Origin: an uncultured Bacteroidales bacterium
Lineage (GTDB): Bacteria > Bacteroidota > Bacteroidia > Bacteroidales > Paludibacteraceae
DNA length: 64,000 nt
Direction: 5' to 3'
NCBI GenBank assembly: GCA_900316125.1
Contig: ONBO01000004.1
Coordinates: forward strand, 1 to 64,000
Shown here: positions 1,929 through 40,998 of the stretch, piece by piece
Layout of the letters: every line of letters begins with the position of its first letter
Numbering within the stretch: the first letter of the stretch is position 1
Notes under the pieces: model-generated
Databases searched by the model: none
Seen by the model: the letters and a program-made list of their open reading frames with translations, nothing else
What the model was told of the DNA's origin: nothing
Translations under genes and position numbers: made by a program

Positions 1929-3434
1929 TCAAAATCTAACCCCAAAATACACCGCGGCAGTATGCGTGAGGTTTTGGTGGAGGAAGGCGGCGGTGTAGGC
2001 GGCTTTGAGGGTGAGCGCCCAGTGGGGCTTGGGGGCGTAGGTGAGGCTTAGGGAGAGGCCGGCATCGCCGTGGCTGTGTGAGAGCTGGTTGAAGGTCTGG
2101 CGCACCGGCTGGTTCCAAAGTGTGGGCTCGCCTATGTTCATATAGCTGTGAAGTGCCGCATTGTATGATGCTTGAACGGCGGTCTCAATAATCCACTTTG
2201 GTAGCACCGCCATATATGTGGCTTCTATGTTATTTGTCAGATGGTTTAGCTCCAGAAGGTATGAGGGATGGAAGTATGACTCCGTAAAGAATCTATACCC
2301 AATCTTATATGTTAGCGTAAAGCGGTTTATTCCTATTGCAAAACCGTAGTTTGCCGCCAAGCAGCCATTCGCCTGCTGCATCCTGTACTGGCGGATGGAG
2401 CCTATAATAGGGTAGATATTGTCCGCCGCATCACCAAAAATATTTTCAACTCCGGCTCTGTTTACATATCCGCCTTGCAGCCCCACAGAGCTGAAACGGC
2501 TTCCCATAATAAAGTGATATGAAAGGTCAGCGTAAGCAGCATGTTCACGGCTCTCTGACATGGGCAGGTTATTTAGCGTGGAAATTATATTGGTATAAGA
2601 TGAGTATCTGTAGTTTACGGCGGAGTTCCATCCTGCGCTGAGGCTGAGCAGTGCTGCGCCGGCTTCTGCGCTGTACCCATTATAGACGGTTGAGGTGTTG
2701 CTGCCGTCAAAACGCACATACCTGTTGCCAAGCCCTGTAAGGTGTACCACGTTTGGCGTGCCCTTTTCACTATAGAACTTCAGAATGTTGCTTTGGTTAT
2801 ATATGTCTGCGCCTACATGCACGCCAATGCGCATGGAATCATTTATGCCGTATGATGTAGCCACTTTTACGTTAAGGTCAGAGACTATGTTCTTGGGACG
2901 TGGATCTACACGGCGTGCCTCTATGGTGGCTCTGTAGGCTGCTTCGGCGGCGATGTCAAATTTGTGCGGCAGACGGACGTTAAAGCCTCCGCTTATCTTG
3001 TAACTTTGGGTTGAGAGGTCTCCGCCCACGCTGTCCGCCATGACGTATGGTGCCAGACGCATATAGTCTGAGGTCTCATTGAACTGCATATTGTAAATCT
3101 TGCCTCCGGTGTATGATGCGCCTCCCCATACAGCCCCCTTGTTAAACAGCTGGAAAGAGCTGACCGCCACATCGCCGCCTACATAACCGGAACCCTCCTG
3201 TGGAATCACTGCCACTTTTTGTGTGTTGTATAGAAAATCCATACCTACATTTGTAAGGCTGTGGCTGTAGCGGTAGCCTCTATGGGAGGTGTTATCATAG
3301 ACCGCACAGAACAGACGCTCCCTGTCCGCACACTCATTAGTGGCAATGCGCTGCAGAACCGCCGTGCTGTCTGCGGCATGGCATACGCTCGCCAAGGCTA
3401 CCAAAATGATTAATATGTAAATTTCAACTTTCAA
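1929..3434 (-). CDS. DUF6850-type outer-membrane beta-barrel protein
   Basis: A 501-residue protein with a clear signal peptide (hydrophobic stretch ending ASVCHAA). The rest is alternating aromatic/polar sequence typical of an outer-membrane barrel, ending in a strand with terminal phenylalanine (AAVYFGVRF). It resembles the DUF6850 family of Bacteroidota. The start is TTG at 3434: a stop codon precedes it directly and no ATG gives the full signal peptide. It lies 94 bp downstream of a TonB-dependent receptor on the same strand and is probably co-transcribed with it. In related genomes I recall a DUF4876 lipoprotein accompanying this pair; none is present here. It is likely an accessory barrel of the uptake system, substrate unknown. 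Confidence 0.75.
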   Translation of the reverse strand: MKVEIYILIILVALASVCHAADSTAVLQRIATNECADRERLFCAVYDNTSHRGYRYSHSLTNVGMDFLYNTQKVAVIPQEGSGYVGGDVAVSSFQLFNKGAVWGGASYTGGKIYNMQFNETSDYMRLAPYVMADSVGGDLSTQSYKISGGFNVRLPHKFDIAAEAAYRATIEARRVDPRPKNIVSDLNVKVATSYGINDSMRIGVHVGADIYNQSNILKFYSEKGTPNVVHLTGLGNRYVRFDGSNTSTVYNGYSAEAGAALLSLSAGWNSAVNYRYSSYTNIISTLNNLPMSESREHAAYADLSYHFIMGSRFSSVGLQGGYVNRAGVENIFGDAADNIYPIIGSIRQYRMQQANGCLAANYGFAIGINRFTLTYKIGYRFFTESYFHPSYLLELNHLTNNIEATYMAVLPKWIIETAVQASYNAALHSYMNIGEPTLWNQPVRQTFNQLSHSHGDAGLSLSLTYAPKPHWALTLKAAYTAAFLHQNLTHTAAVYFGVRF

Positions 3435-34836: not shown

Positions 34837-36096
34837 ATGTCAACGTCTACTATACTTCTGATTGTAATCATAGCTTTTATCATCTGTGATTTTGTGCTTG
34901 AACGTGTGCTCTATGGTCTTAACGCCCGTAATTTTGGCAAGCCTATACCAGCTGAACTTGAGGGTATTTATGATGAACAGAAATATCAGAAGCAGCAGGC
35001 GTACTCCATGTCTAAGTACAAGGTTGGTATCGTGACATCAGTGGTGTCACTTGTTATAGAGCTTGTGGCGTTTGGTTTCGGGCTTTTCGGGTGGCTTGAC
35101 GGAGTGCTGCGAGAGCCTGTTATGTCATGGACAGACAATCCAGTCCTGCAAATAATATTACTCAGCGTTCTGTTCTTCTTGGTGGTGATGGTTGTGAACC
35201 ATGTTATAGACATCCCCCTATCATACTACAGCCGGTTTGGCATAGAGGAGCGTTTTGGTTTTAATAAGAGCACAAAAAAACTATTCTGGATAGATCAGCT
35301 TAAAAGCCTGCTTCTATCTGCAATTATTTTGATTCTGATACTATCCATTGTTTCATGGATATATGCAGTCATGCCGGATTGGTTCTGGATAATGGCTTGG
35401 GGCGTGCTCACAATATTCCAGGTTTTCATTATGACATTCTACAGCAATATCATAGTTCCGCTCTTCAATAAACAGACCCCGCTTGAGGAGGGTGAGCTCA
35501 GAAGCAAGATAGAGGCGTTTGCCACCAAGGTGGATTTCAAACTTGACAATATCTACGTAATGGACTCATCTAAACGCTCAACCCACGCTAACGCCTACTT
35601 CACAGGCTTAGGCAGCCATAAGCGTATAGTCCTTTATGATACACTAATAAGCCAGCTCACACCAGATGAGATAGTGGCTGTGCTTGCACATGAAATAGGC
35701 CACTATAAAAGGAAACACACTCTGCGTCAGCTCTTTATGTCAATGGCGTCAAATCTGCTGATGTTCTACATCCTGGGCTTGGCCATATCATCGCCGGAGC
35801 TATCAGAGGCTATGGGCGGCACAGTGCCGGCATTCCACCTCGGACTTATGGCTATAGGTATCCTCTACACACCTATATCCACAGCCATAGGCATATTCTC
35901 AAATGTACTCTCACGCAAGTATGAGTATCAGGCGGATGATTTTGCCAAGTGCAACGGCATGGCTCCTCAGCTCATATCAGCGCTTAAGAAGCTCTCATCA
36001 GAGTCCCTCAGCAACCTGCAGCCGCACCCAGCGCTTGTGTTTGTACACTTCTCCCACCCAACACTCCTGCAAAGGATTATCAAGCTAAAGGCTTAA
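34837..36096 (+). CDS. M48-family zinc metalloprotease, Ste24/CAAX-protease-like
   Basis: A 419-residue polytopic membrane protease. Hydrophobic helices surround the zinc site HEIGH (VLAHEIGHYKRKH, residues ~285-297). The third ligand Glu is in the SRKYEYQADDFA segment about 70 residues later. The layout matches Ste24/HtpX-type M48 proteases, which act in membrane protein quality control in bacteria. A TAACTTTG box at 34808-34815 precedes ATG 34837; its -33 is weak. Confidence 0.93.
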   Translation: MSTSTILLIVIIAFIICDFVLERVLYGLNARNFGKPIPAELEGIYDEQKYQKQQAYSMSKYKVGIVTSVVSLVIELVAFGFGLFGWLDGVLREPVMSWTDNPVLQIILLSVLFFLVVMVVNHVIDIPLSYYSRFGIEERFGFNKSTKKLFWIDQLKSLLLSAIILILILSIVSWIYAVMPDWFWIMAWGVLTIFQVFIMTFYSNIIVPLFNKQTPLEEGELRSKIEAFATKVDFKLDNIYVMDSSKRSTHANAYFTGLGSHKRIVLYDTLISQLTPDEIVAVLAHEIGHYKRKHTLRQLFMSMASNLLMFYILGLAISSPELSEAMGGTVPAFHLGLMAIGILYTPISTAIGIFSNVLSRKYEYQADDFAKCNGMAPQLISALKKLSSESLSNLQPHPALVFVHFSHPTLLQRIIKLKA

Positions 36097-36141
36097 AATT
36101 TATTACTAACGCAAGGTAATTATTAAATAAAGTTAAATTAT

Positions 36142-36172
36142 TTTGCTGGTATTATTATTTTTATTACGTTTG
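36142..36172 (+). promoter_or_regulatory. Predicted promoter of the tandem FISUMP lipoprotein operon
   Basis: TTTG 36142-36145, exactly 19 bp, TACGTTTG 36165-36172 followed by C: a full consensus match. The transcript would carry an unusually long leader of about 155 bases before ATG 36336. Confidence 0.78.
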
Positions 36173-36198
36173 CATAATGAACTGTATCATTATGCACA

Positions 36199-36306
36199 CA
36201 TACCGTCATTTTGAGCATTCTCATACCGTCATGCTGAGCGAAGTGACGAGTTGATGAGGGCTTGTCCCGACGAATTGATGACAGTCAGGGAATAATAAGC
36301 ATCTCG
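36199..36306. repeat. Leader-region repeat (CATACCGTCAT / GCTGAGCGAAGTG type)
   Basis: CATACCGTCAT occurs at 36199-36209 and again at 36222-36232, the second continuing GCTGAGCGAAGTG. GACGA(G/A)TTGATGA occurs twice a little further on, and the element ends with AGCATCTCG. GTCATGCTGAGCGAAGT...AGCATCTC resembles a dispersed hairpin repeat I know from Bacteroidota intergenic regions. It lies in the 5' untranslated leader of the lipoprotein operon. Confidence 0.6.
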
Positions 36307-36335
36307 TAATGATTATAATTAACCATATTAATATT

Positions 36336-38925
36336 ATGAAAATCAATTCTTTACAAATTTTAATGGGGGGGGGTAGCACTTCTATTGCTCGCCTCATTGT
36401 TCGCTTGTAACAAAGACAAGAAGGACGAACCTCAAGGTGCAAAAATTGAAAGCATCAGTTTCAAACAAGAAAACTACTCTGTATTTGAATATCAGGCGGA
36501 GGGTATAAACCTCAGAGAAGAGCTGACAATAGCTCCAGCTGCCATGGCGGACACCTGCAAGGTGACATGGGCGCTCACAAATACAGATGTCGCCTCCATC
36601 AGCAAAGACGGTGTTATTACACCTAATAAAGTAGGTGAGACCTTGGTAACTGCCACCGTTCAAAACAAATCAGCTCAGTGCAAATTCACAGTTAAAGAGG
36701 TAGTGGTAACAAAAATTATATTAGAGGACTTGGAAGTTGCAGTAGGTGCAGAAACTGCCCTGGTATACACTACAGAGCCTGCTATGGTGCCGGTTGATCG
36801 CCTTACACTTACAAGCGCCGATGTTAATGTTGCCAAAATAAGTGAAAGCAATGCCGTTATTGGTGTAAAAGATGGTGAGACCACAATTACCGCCAAATGC
36901 GGTACCGTTCAGGCTACATGCAATGTGAAGGTGGGCAAGGGTGTGATACCTGTTAAAAGTGTAAAGGTTTTACCTGCAAGTTTTGCAGACGATGTTATAG
37001 TAGGAGCCACTAAGAAACTTGAAATTGAGGTGGATCCTGTAGACGCTCAATATGATAAAGTTATCTGGAGAACTTCAAACAGTTCAGTAGCCACGGTAAG
37101 TGAAGATGGAACCGTTACCTGCAAGGGAAAGGGTAGCTGTACCATCACCGCCACTGTAGACGGTAAGGAGGGAACTTGTCAGGTTACTTATACCGAGTCT
37201 ATTGTGCATGTAACATCAGTGACAGTAACCCCATCCACATGGACAACCAATGTAACTATAGGGCTTACTAAGAAACTTACTGCTACAGTGCTGCCTGATA
37301 ATGCTACAGAAAAGACTGTGACTTGGACATCATCTAATAATAGTATTGCCTCAGTAGCTTCTGACGGAACCGTTACTTGTAAGGGAGTTGGTGAGGCTAC
37401 CATCACAGCTTCATGTGATGGTAAGAGTGGAACTTGCAAGGTTACTTTCAAAAAAGTTCCAGTAACCTCAGTTAGCGTTGATCCAGCATCATTTACTGGC
37501 GATGCAATTGTGGGCTCAACTAAGAAACTCAAGGCTAATATTTTCCCAACTAATGCAACAGAACAGACTGTTGTTTGGGCATCATCTAATAATAGCGTGG
37601 CTGAAGTAAGCCATGACGGAACCGTAACCTGCAAGGGCGTGGGAACGGCTACCATTTCTGCTACATGTGACGGCAAGAGCGGCACATGCAAGGTAACTTA
37701 CAATAAGATCAAGGTGACCTCTGTAATAGTAAATCCATCTGTTTTCACTATGGAAGGCAATGTTGGTTCCACCAAGCAGCTTACTGTTATAATTCAGCCG
37801 TCAAATGCTTCAGAAAAGACAATTTCATTGAAATCTTCTAACACATCTGTTGCCACTGTAAGTAGTACAGGCCTTGTTACTTGCAAGGGCGTGGGAGATG
37901 CTACCATTACAGCTACATGTGACGGCGTGAGTGGTACATGTACTGCTCACTTTACACAACCTGTTATAAAAGTACAATCAGTAACTATGTCACAAACCAG
38001 TGCCAATCTTCTTTCTGTGGCAACGGCAGGTGGAGAAGGTATAGGCATACTATCTCTTGATGCAACGGTAAAACCATCTAATGCAACATATCCTACATTA
38101 ACATGGAAATCTTCAAATACATCAGTTGCCTCAGTAGATGGATATGGCGTAGTGATTGCATACGGGGCTGGTACAACAACCATTACAGCCACTGCTGATG
38201 GAAAGTCTGCCACATGTGAAATCACAGTCAGACCAGGTGCTTATATATTAGACCGTGAAAATAACTCATATCTTACTGTAAAAATAGGTAATCAGTGGTG
38301 GTTTGCTGAGAATCTTAGATGTGGAAGATATGACACTAATAGCGAGCGACCCAATGCAGGTATAAGTAGTTCGCCTACTGCAGATGGTGATGATCCATTC
38401 TATTTGGATACACGTATAACATCTAATTGGGAAGATGCAACTCATGCAGGTTACTTAAGTGCCGCTCAGAAAAAGAAACTGGGATACATGTATAACTGGG
38501 CAGCAGCTGTAGGTTTTAGAACTGGCTCAGAAGCCAGAGAAAGTACAAGCCTTACAGGTCGCCAGGGTATCTGTCCTAATGGTTGGCATATACCTACCCT
38601 TGCCGAATGGAATACCCTTATCTCAAACGTGGGTGGAGAGGAGGTTGCTGGTACAAAATTGAAGACAACATCCGGGTGGTACACCACAAGTAGTTCATTT
38701 AACAGCAATGGTACTGATGAGTTCTTCTTTAGTATACTACCTTCCGGAGGTGGATCTAGTGGTAAAATACATGATATTGGTGAATATGCTAGATTTTGGA
38801 CTTCTTCCGTTAATGTTTATAATACTCAATATGCAACCTATGAAGAGTTCTGTTGGGGTTATGGCTATTCTGTTGACAGAGATAGTGGTAAACACAGTCT
38901 GCTTGCAGTTCGTTGCGTAAAGTGA
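36336..38925 (+). CDS. Large FISUMP lipoprotein with seven Ig-like domains, out of frame at a poly-G tract
   Basis: Translation from ATG 36336 (MKINSLQILMGGG...) meets a stop after 22 residues, because nine G at 36365-36373 shift the frame. With eight G the frame joins VALLLLASLFAC, a perfect lipoprotein signal with lipobox ASLFAC, and continues for ~860 residues. The body has seven BIG2 Ig-like domains of about 84 residues, then a FISUMP domain (~38275-38922; VKIGNQWWFAENLRC, GICPNGWHIPTLAEW, final VRCVK). The sister gene at 38947 has the same MKxxSL start. I read it as a phase-variable gene captured OFF, or a homopolymer sequencing error. The mature-protein frame is 36373-38925. Confidence 0.85.
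36365..36373 (+). repeat. Homopolymer of nine G within the signal-peptide codons
   Basis: A (G)9 run in an otherwise AT-rich region, ten codons into the lipoprotein gene. Eight (or eleven) G would give an intact lipoprotein precursor; nine gives premature termination. Such tracts mutate by slipped-strand mispairing. Confidence 0.9.
36952..37971 (+). repeat. Tandem ~255-bp Ig-domain repeats within the FISUMP lipoprotein
   Basis: Four successive units start at 36952, 37210, 37462 and 37714 (258, 252, 252 and 258 bp). They share strongly conserved DNA such as GGAACCGTTACCTGCAAGGG near 37110, with close copies near 37365 and 37617. Unequal recombination among these units could change domain number. 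Confidence 0.85.
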
Positions 38926-38946: not shown

Positions 38947-40998
38947 ATGAAAGTTAAATCTTTAATTATGATTATTGCATCCCTTGCACTAATTATGGCA
39001 TCGGGGTGCAAGAAAGAGGCTAAGCCAGGTCAGCTTGAAAGCATTAAATTTAAGCAGGCAAGTTACACCATAGCGGAAAACTATCTTGATTTTAATCTGA
39101 GAAAAGAGCTTGAAACAGTACCTGCAGGCGTAAAAGACACTGCTAAAATCAAATATGTTATCAGCGATGAAAGTGTGGCTACAATGAACAGCAGTTACCT
39201 TGAACCAAAGCGTGACGGTGATATCACCGTTACAGCAACTATTCAAGGTAAAAGCGCAACTTGCGATGTTAAGATTACAGCTGTGCCTATTGAGGATTTC
39301 TCTTTGGAGGATTTCTCTGTACAATTATATGGCACTGCAAAAGTTCTCCTCACCACTGAGCCAAATGGTATAAGCCATGAACGTTTTACATGGAAGGTGA
39401 GTGACGAATCTTATGCCACTATAGACCAAAGCGGTGTTGTTACAGGACTCAAAGAGGGGACCGTCACTGTTACCGCCACTGCTGACGGCAAGAGTAGAAT
39501 ATGTGATCTTACAGTTAAAAAGAAAGTTGTAACTGATGTAAAACTTTCACAAACAGAAGCACGATTCTACAAAATTGGAGAGACACTTCAGCTTACTGCC
39601 ATAGTGGAGCCTGACGACGCATCATTCCCGGAGGTAACATGGACAAGCAGCAACCCTGATATAGTAAGTGTTGACGATAAAGGTTTACTTACTGCAAAGA
39701 AATATCCTAAAGATGATAATCCACCTATAGTCATCATTGCTAAAGCTGACAATGTAAAGGCTTATTGTTATGTTACGCTTTGGCCACAGCAAGCCACTAA
39801 AATACTTCTAAACGCAGTAAACTATACATTCACGGAAGTAGGTGAATCATTTGATCTCTATATTTGGAGAGTGGAGCCAGCCGAGCGAACTCTTGAAGAT
39901 GTGTACCAGTGGTATACAATGAGAGGAGATACAAAGGTATGTTCAATAAACGGTCAGGCGCAAATATTATCTACTAAACTAACTAGGGTCTCTATAACAT
40001 GCAACTCACCTGGCAAAGAGACAATACGCTGTATGGATGATTGGTCTGGAGTATACGCAGACTGTGAGGTTGAACTGCCATTAATTCCTATAACTGGAAT
40101 AAGTTTATCGAGTACTTCAACTGTAAGGTCACTATCCGATGGAAAGTTCACAGTTTCTGCCACGGTCACACCTTCTAACGCAAATGAGGATATTAAATGG
40201 GAGGTGAACTCCAAATTCTCAGGCGTTGGTGCTGCGACCATAACCCCATCAAAAGACGGTCGTTCTGCATCTGTTAATCCTACGCAAGTTGGACATATAA
40301 TTGTAACAGCCTCTTCTTCAAATGCTTCAGGCCAGATTGACATTAGTATAGTGGAGAATAATGGTACAGTAACTGACTGTCAAAATAATACTTATCAAAC
40401 TGTAAAGATTGGCAATCAATGGTGGATGGCGGAGAATTTGAAATGCACAATGTATTCCACCAATAGCGAGGCCTCCGGAAGTATAAAAAACTTTATATCA
40501 TCACATAGCACTAACAGTTATCCTCCGTATTACTACTTATATTCTTCGTCTTCTTTTTGGAATAGCTGGTCAAGTAAAGACAAAGAAAAAGCAGGTTTAC
40601 TTTACAACTGGGCCGCAGCAGTTGGTTTTGACTCTGAGAGTGATGCCAAAGCACAGACAACAGACTTTAGTAAAAGACGTCAAGGTATCTGCCCTGATGG
40701 TTGGCACTTGCCTACAGTAGCAGAGCTGACAACACTTAAAAATTATGTGACGTCATATGATGATCTGGCAGCCGACAGCTGGTATGGAAATGATAAATAT
40801 GGATTCTATGCTCTGCCTACCTGTACTTACAGTCCTGATAAACGAGATTATTCTTCCAATACAAAATATTGTTACTTCTGGTCTGCGTCTGCTGGCAGTG
40901 CAAATAGTGCTAAGGCATTATATATAAAATCTGCACTTTATGATATATATTCACAAGGTAAAGACGGATTTTACAGCGTCCGCTGTGTTAAGAACTAA
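38947..40998 (+). CDS. FISUMP lipoprotein with several Ig-like domains
   Basis: A 683-residue lipoprotein with lipobox MASGC (Cys21). About five BIG2-like domains follow, with clear cores such as FTWKVSDESYATIDQSG and VTWTSSNPDIVSVDDKG and more diverged ones toward the C-terminal side. The FISUMP domain starts near residue 475 (TVKIGNQWWMAENLKC) and includes GICPDGWHLPTVAEL and a final SVRCVKN. It is 21 bp downstream of the poly-G gene, and its first domain aligns with that gene's first domain, so the pair arose by duplication. If translation of the first gene is aborted, polarity could also affect this one. Confidence 0.9.
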   Translation: MKVKSLIMIIASLALIMASGCKKEAKPGQLESIKFKQASYTIAENYLDFNLRKELETVPAGVKDTAKIKYVISDESVATMNSSYLEPKRDGDITVTATIQGKSATCDVKITAVPIEDFSLEDFSVQLYGTAKVLLTTEPNGISHERFTWKVSDESYATIDQSGVVTGLKEGTVTVTATADGKSRICDLTVKKKVVTDVKLSQTEARFYKIGETLQLTAIVEPDDASFPEVTWTSSNPDIVSVDDKGLLTAKKYPKDDNPPIVIIAKADNVKAYCYVTLWPQQATKILLNAVNYTFTEVGESFDLYIWRVEPAERTLEDVYQWYTMRGDTKVCSINGQAQILSTKLTRVSITCNSPGKETIRCMDDWSGVYADCEVELPLIPITGISLSSTSTVRSLSDGKFTVSATVTPSNANEDIKWEVNSKFSGVGAATITPSKDGRSASVNPTQVGHIIVTASSSNASGQIDISIVENNGTVTDCQNNTYQTVKIGNQWWMAENLKCTMYSTNSEASGSIKNFISSHSTNSYPPYYYLYSSSSFWNSWSSKDKEKAGLLYNWAAAVGFDSESDAKAQTTDFSKRRQGICPDGWHLPTVAELTTLKNYVTSYDDLAADSWYGNDKYGFYALPTCTYSPDKRDYSSNTKYCYFWSASAGSANSAKALYIKSALYDIYSQGKDGFYSVRCVKN

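Follow-up and report, generated by a model that had tools for sequence, protein, structure and literature searches.

A poly-G tract in the signal peptide of a FISUMP lipoprotein gene from Bacteroidales: a probable phase-variable switch assembled in the OFF state

Poly-G contingency genes are found in Campylobacter, Helicobacter and Neisseria, where the gain or loss of a G in the 5' codons of genes for surface structures turns these genes ON or OFF. In Bacteroides, invertible promoters and shufflons, with the Mpi and Tsr recombinases, rely on the inversion of DNA between inverted repeats. Most discussion of phase variation in Bacteroidales concerns DNA inversion, and the corresponding screens seek inverted repeats. 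An example of a poly-G gene is pldA (PMC2831843). For the sortase-dependent pilus genes bbr_0113 and bbr_1889 of Bifidobacterium breve UCC2003, replication slippage at a G tract was proven, and in B. breve the tract lengths of the ON state were enriched in the mouse gut (PMC9187656).

The locus described here lies in a 64 kb window, which is the whole stretch of DNA that was analysed. A tract of nine Gs was found at positions 36365-36373 of the + strand, within the signal peptide of a lipoprotein gene (codons 10-13), and is proposed as a slippage switch. As assembled, the gene is one letter out of frame. The arrangement resembles that of B. breve in that a G tract lies between an ORF for a secretion signal and the remainder of a predicted surface protein, the reference genome is in the OFF state and a change in the number of Gs restores the protein; like B. 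breve UCC2003, the organism is a gut commensal (PMC9187656). It differs in that the phylum is another one and the product is a lipoprotein instead of a pilin; moreover, the B. breve study measured length variation as well as selection in vivo, whereas here the tract is known from assembled sequence. Unlike the genomes of Campylobacter, Helicobacter and Neisseria, where such tracts are numerous, the present genome has just one in coding sequence. With the inversion systems of Bacteroides the locus would share the phase variation of surface components, within the same order, but the proposed switch is located in the coding sequence and no pair of inverted repeats flanking the promoter was detected within 36090-36460, a region that holds just a short hairpin.

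Translation of the assembled sequence from the ATG at 36336 gave a frame of 24 codons (MKINSLQILMGGGSTSIARLIVRL; 36336-36410, + strand), which ends at a TAA stop at 36408-36410. In the ON frame, the rest of the signal peptide reads VALLLLASLFAC (36373-36408, + strand) and leads to the lipobox LFAC, with the putative lipidated cysteine at codon 36406-36408, as judged from the sequence motif alone. Tract lengths from G6 to G13 were then translated in silico. The G8 product comprised 862 residues, beginning with MKINSLQILMGGVALLLLASLFAC (a longer stretch of its start being MKINSLQILMGGVALLLLASLFACNKDKKDEPQG), and the G11 product 863 residues. At G6, G7, G9, G10, G12 and G13 a stop was reached within 25 codons, namely after 24 codons at G9 and after 13 codons at G10. 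The locus has a homopolymer of the class of about eight or more letters in the 5' end of a coding sequence, and a length change of one unit toggles between the full protein and an early stop.

The frame of the mature lipoprotein (36406-38925, + strand) encodes six Big_2 Ig-like domains followed by a C-terminal FISUMP domain, as supported by Pfam, TIGR02145 and dN/dS. Six stretches matched PF02368 (Big_2, E 1.5e-72), and PF09603 (Fib_succ_major) was detected with an E value of 7.1e-29. The C-terminal FISUMP domain scored above the curated cut-offs of both TIGR02145 (112.9 bits vs 41.65) and PF09603 (101.8 bits vs 33.9). The product is predicted to be exported on the basis of its lipobox, and it is presumably expressed and exposed on the cell surface.

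A promoter was recognised by pattern match 163 nt upstream of the ATG at 36336 (36142-36172, + strand). It consists of TTTG at 36142, a spacer of 19 nt and TACGTTTG at 36165-36172, and fits the established Bacteroidota consensus. The short hairpin mentioned above is an imperfect inverted repeat of 16 nt with a 6-nt loop (36165-36202), which overlaps the -7 promoter box. A sister FISUMP lipoprotein gene with an intact signal peptide (38947-40998, + strand) starts 21 nt downstream of the first gene; it is possibly co-transcribed with it and may suffer polarity in the OFF state of the first gene. Most of what the first-pass annotation had described is in agreement with these data: the tract occupies exactly the positions given there, one G fewer yields the intact FISUMP/Ig-like protein of about 860 residues, the open frame contains seven domains, the promoter, called perfect there, fits the consensus and the MKxxSL start is common to the sister gene, which begins MKVKSL. 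Its count of 22 codons for the assembled frame was corrected to 24 residues followed by the TAA.

The tract was compared in related genomes, a check named in that annotation, with one genome per species. A full-length ortholog was found in one of the 16 genomes of the genus, that of another species (G015), with an amino-acid identity of 57-58% over 833 aligned codons. The plasmid collection gave no match, and the named genome collection gave remote matches only (27-33% identity) and no ortholog. The ortholog in G015 starts with ATGAAAATCAAAGGTTTACACATTTTATTAGT-GGGGGGGGG-TAGTCCTACTC and has kept G9 at the same place (L016:1484-1492), where it likewise exceeds by one base the length that fits the lipoprotein frame. 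Comparison of the ORF with that of the genome under study (G000) gave a dN of 0.39, a saturated dS of 2.27 and a dN/dS of about 0.17, which shows purifying selection on the protein of the ON frame, so that the downstream protein is kept. Substitutions and in-frame indels occur on either side of the tract, and the two reading frames are therefore both maintained. Since synonymous sites are saturated, a GGG GGG stretch free of selection would no longer be intact; nevertheless, the two GGG codons and the tract are retained in this single full-length ortholog. According to a simple density estimate, the probability that a tract falls by chance no more than 5 bp away from the orthologous position is about 5e-6. 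The decisive point against chance is that the ortholog has kept the tract.

Two other explanations for the assembled state can be judged from the same comparison. A pseudogene, fixed in the wrong frame after a random frameshift, would be in keeping with the assembled frame and its certain early stop. However, apart from the tract no further lesion was found across 846 codons of the lipoprotein gene, and at the observed dN/dS, with the same tract and register in the ortholog, an identical decay would be needed in two lineages while the remainder stayed intact. Decay is thus very improbable, and the earlier view of a functional gene that is not decayed holds for what is, to all appearances, a functional-looking one. 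A sequencing or assembly error is the other explanation, the true length being G8 and the gene always ON. Errors of this kind are common in homopolymers, and the assembly is a 75-contig draft; on the other hand, G9 was assembled independently in G015, and tract lengths from 8 to 14 are all present in these assemblies, so they do not collapse to one value. Furthermore, even with G8 as the true length, the start of a coding sequence would carry eight consecutive Gs, although the genome otherwise avoids such runs. An error is therefore very improbable. In both cases it is the conservation of tract and register in G015 that makes assembly error and one-off decay unlikely.

The rarity of G runs was also evaluated. 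Tract length alone is weak evidence, because at least two G8 matches were present in 24 of 100 dinucleotide shuffles of the window. The G000 genome is depleted of long G runs: its 2.07 Mb contain five runs of at least eight Gs and two runs of seven. The window otherwise has no G6-G8 and a single C6. GGG represents 9% of the Gly codons in the window and 8-9% in both genomes (G000 and G015), and the only in-frame GGG-GGG pair among the long ORFs of the window is the one in this tract. The other four tracts of at least eight Gs in the genome were rejected as coding switches, as none is in coding sequence; one is located in a leader, two in G-rich hairpin repeats and one between convergent genes. 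The two hairpin repeats (L013 4866-4873 and 5597-5606, G000:C28) have a CTCCGCAGAG core with G8 and G10, respectively, and point in opposite directions at a distance of about 730 bp; G015 contains a comparable copy with G7 (L151). A search of Rfam at the tracts gave no matches.

Regarding the FISUMP family, it had been proposed that its lipoproteins are phase-variable through simple repeats. For coding tracts this was not borne out: none of the 16 other FISUMP ORFs in the same genome has a G tract at its start, including the signal peptide, and nearly all have ordinary signal peptides. A wider role is partly supported by a leader tract of another FISUMP lipoprotein gene and by unrelated lipoproteins of the order with an equivalent layout. 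G015 has only two tracts of at least eight Gs, each corresponding to a tract of G000. The second shared tract is situated in the presumed transcribed leader of an operon for a small peptide and a FISUMP lipoprotein, 62-63 nt after a TAnnTTTG box (L012 5642-5721, G000:C19; ortholog L095, G015:C37, tract 3179-3187). Its length differs, being C10 in G000 and C9 in G015. With a conserved position and a different length, this C tract is a candidate for a leader-located switch.

A hairpin element, AAATTACCCTCCCCG(N7)CGGGGGGGGTAATTTGCTTATTATCANNNAGTTA, was observed repeatedly in genomes G011-G014, at distances of about 45-500 bp upstream of lipoprotein genes, FISUMP ones among them (L084 2865-2872, L085 3028-3035, L087 3002-3009, L088 3060-3067, L110 3152-3160 and others); at the gathering score, Rfam gave no match for it. 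A similar GGGGGGGGTAA..TTGATTATCAAT motif is present at L101 3172-3179 and L108 2941-2948, inside genes that by eye resemble those of type I restriction specificity subunits, and may be a recombination or insertion site.

Signal peptides of Bacteroidales were surveyed with the pattern ATG, at least eight Gs and then TGYAA (the lipobox cysteine codon plus AA) in genomes of the family (358), the order (393) and the class (395). Matches at the family and order levels were read, while class-level matches outside the order were judged by eye from the matched strings. Six further convincing cases were found among unrelated surface proteins of Bacteroidales, with G9 or G11 in the signal peptide and all OFF as assembled. 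These were a lipoprotein with G11 (G053), a lipoprotein with G9 (G704), three BACON-type lipoproteins of a single genome, all with G9, of which two were found by the pattern and the third paralog by protein search (G469), and a DUF285 secreted protein with G11 (G411). In each of them the tract begins at a distance of 27-37 nt from the ATG, and altering it by one or two Gs connects the signal peptide with an intact exported protein (282 to 523 residues). In G469 (L208, L209, L221) the BACON-type lipoproteins form a family of about 28 paralogs, and the three with the signal-peptide tract are all out of frame as assembled. No orthologs of the G053 lipoprotein were found in 178 genomes of its genus. 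At the class level outside Bacteroidales, the strings inspected by eye revealed no recognisable out-of-frame lipoprotein signal peptide and two apparently in-frame G8 cases (L254, L273). Singletons prove little, since one chance tract in a signal peptide among several hundred genomes is unsurprising; the weight of the survey is carried by the conserved G000/G015 pair and the three paralogs of G469.

When G000 and G015 are included, six of the eight cases need one G fewer and two need one more or two fewer. These mixed offsets are better explained by random slippage than by one programmed frameshift. The ON state was found in none of the eight, where one third would be expected under random lengths; the probability of finding all eight OFF is about 0.04 if all are independent, and about 0.1 with paralogs and orthologs merged. 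Such a result fits a default-OFF switch but is compatible with RNA-level recoding as well. In the latter case, the full lipoprotein would be made by programmed recoding at the G tract, through slippage of the RNA polymerase or frameshifting of the ribosome, the genome being fixed at G9 and the gene never truly OFF. Both orthologs do have G9 with an identical offset of one base, and six of the eight cases are G9 tracts with ON at G8, but the two G11 cases require the other offset. No stable RNA structure was found downstream (z -0.81 and +0.69, no better than shuffles), and transcriptional slippage in bacteria usually takes place at runs of A or T (PMC3711429). Programmed recoding is therefore considered unlikely.

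The best explanation for the locus, and a probable one, is a poly-G slipped-strand phase-variable surface lipoprotein gene, assembled OFF, because the frame is set by the G tract in a functional-looking gene and a second species has kept this tract. According to this mechanism, the signal-peptide tract would gain or lose a G at a high rate during replication. At G8 (or G11) the start codon would be in frame with the lipobox and the surface lipoprotein of about 862 residues, with its six Ig-like domains and the FISUMP domain, would be made. At G9 or G10, translation would end at 24 or 13 codons, respectively, and the lipoprotein would not be formed, with a possible decrease of the downstream sister gene by polarity. 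The assembled sequence would correspond to the OFF state, which would be dominant in the assembled populations; the tract length presumably varies within populations and the OFF state should be reversible. A wider proposal is put forward tentatively, as a real possibility that falls somewhat short of probable: besides DNA inversion, Bacteroidales may use a default-OFF poly-G switch at one fixed site of the signal peptide (codons ~10-13, before the hydrophobic core), which would have arisen repeatedly in unrelated families (FISUMP/Ig-like, BACON and others) and been kept across species.

The mechanism itself is already known. Literature searches for FISUMP together with phase variation, and for homopolymer switching of surface lipoproteins in Bacteroidota, found no reports; as most subscription journals and preprints are outside their coverage, the latter is a weak negative. 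What makes the locus noteworthy is the conservation of the tract, its recurrence at one signal-peptide position and the fact that screens based on inversion do not see it. If true, such screens would overlook a conserved G-tract switch, and the genes concerned would be given a wrong start or annotated as pseudogenes. Among the surface proteins of Bacteroidales, lipoproteins are major ones and plausible interfaces with phages, antibodies and nutrients. A second switching mechanism acting on them would therefore change the counts of surface variation in gut communities.
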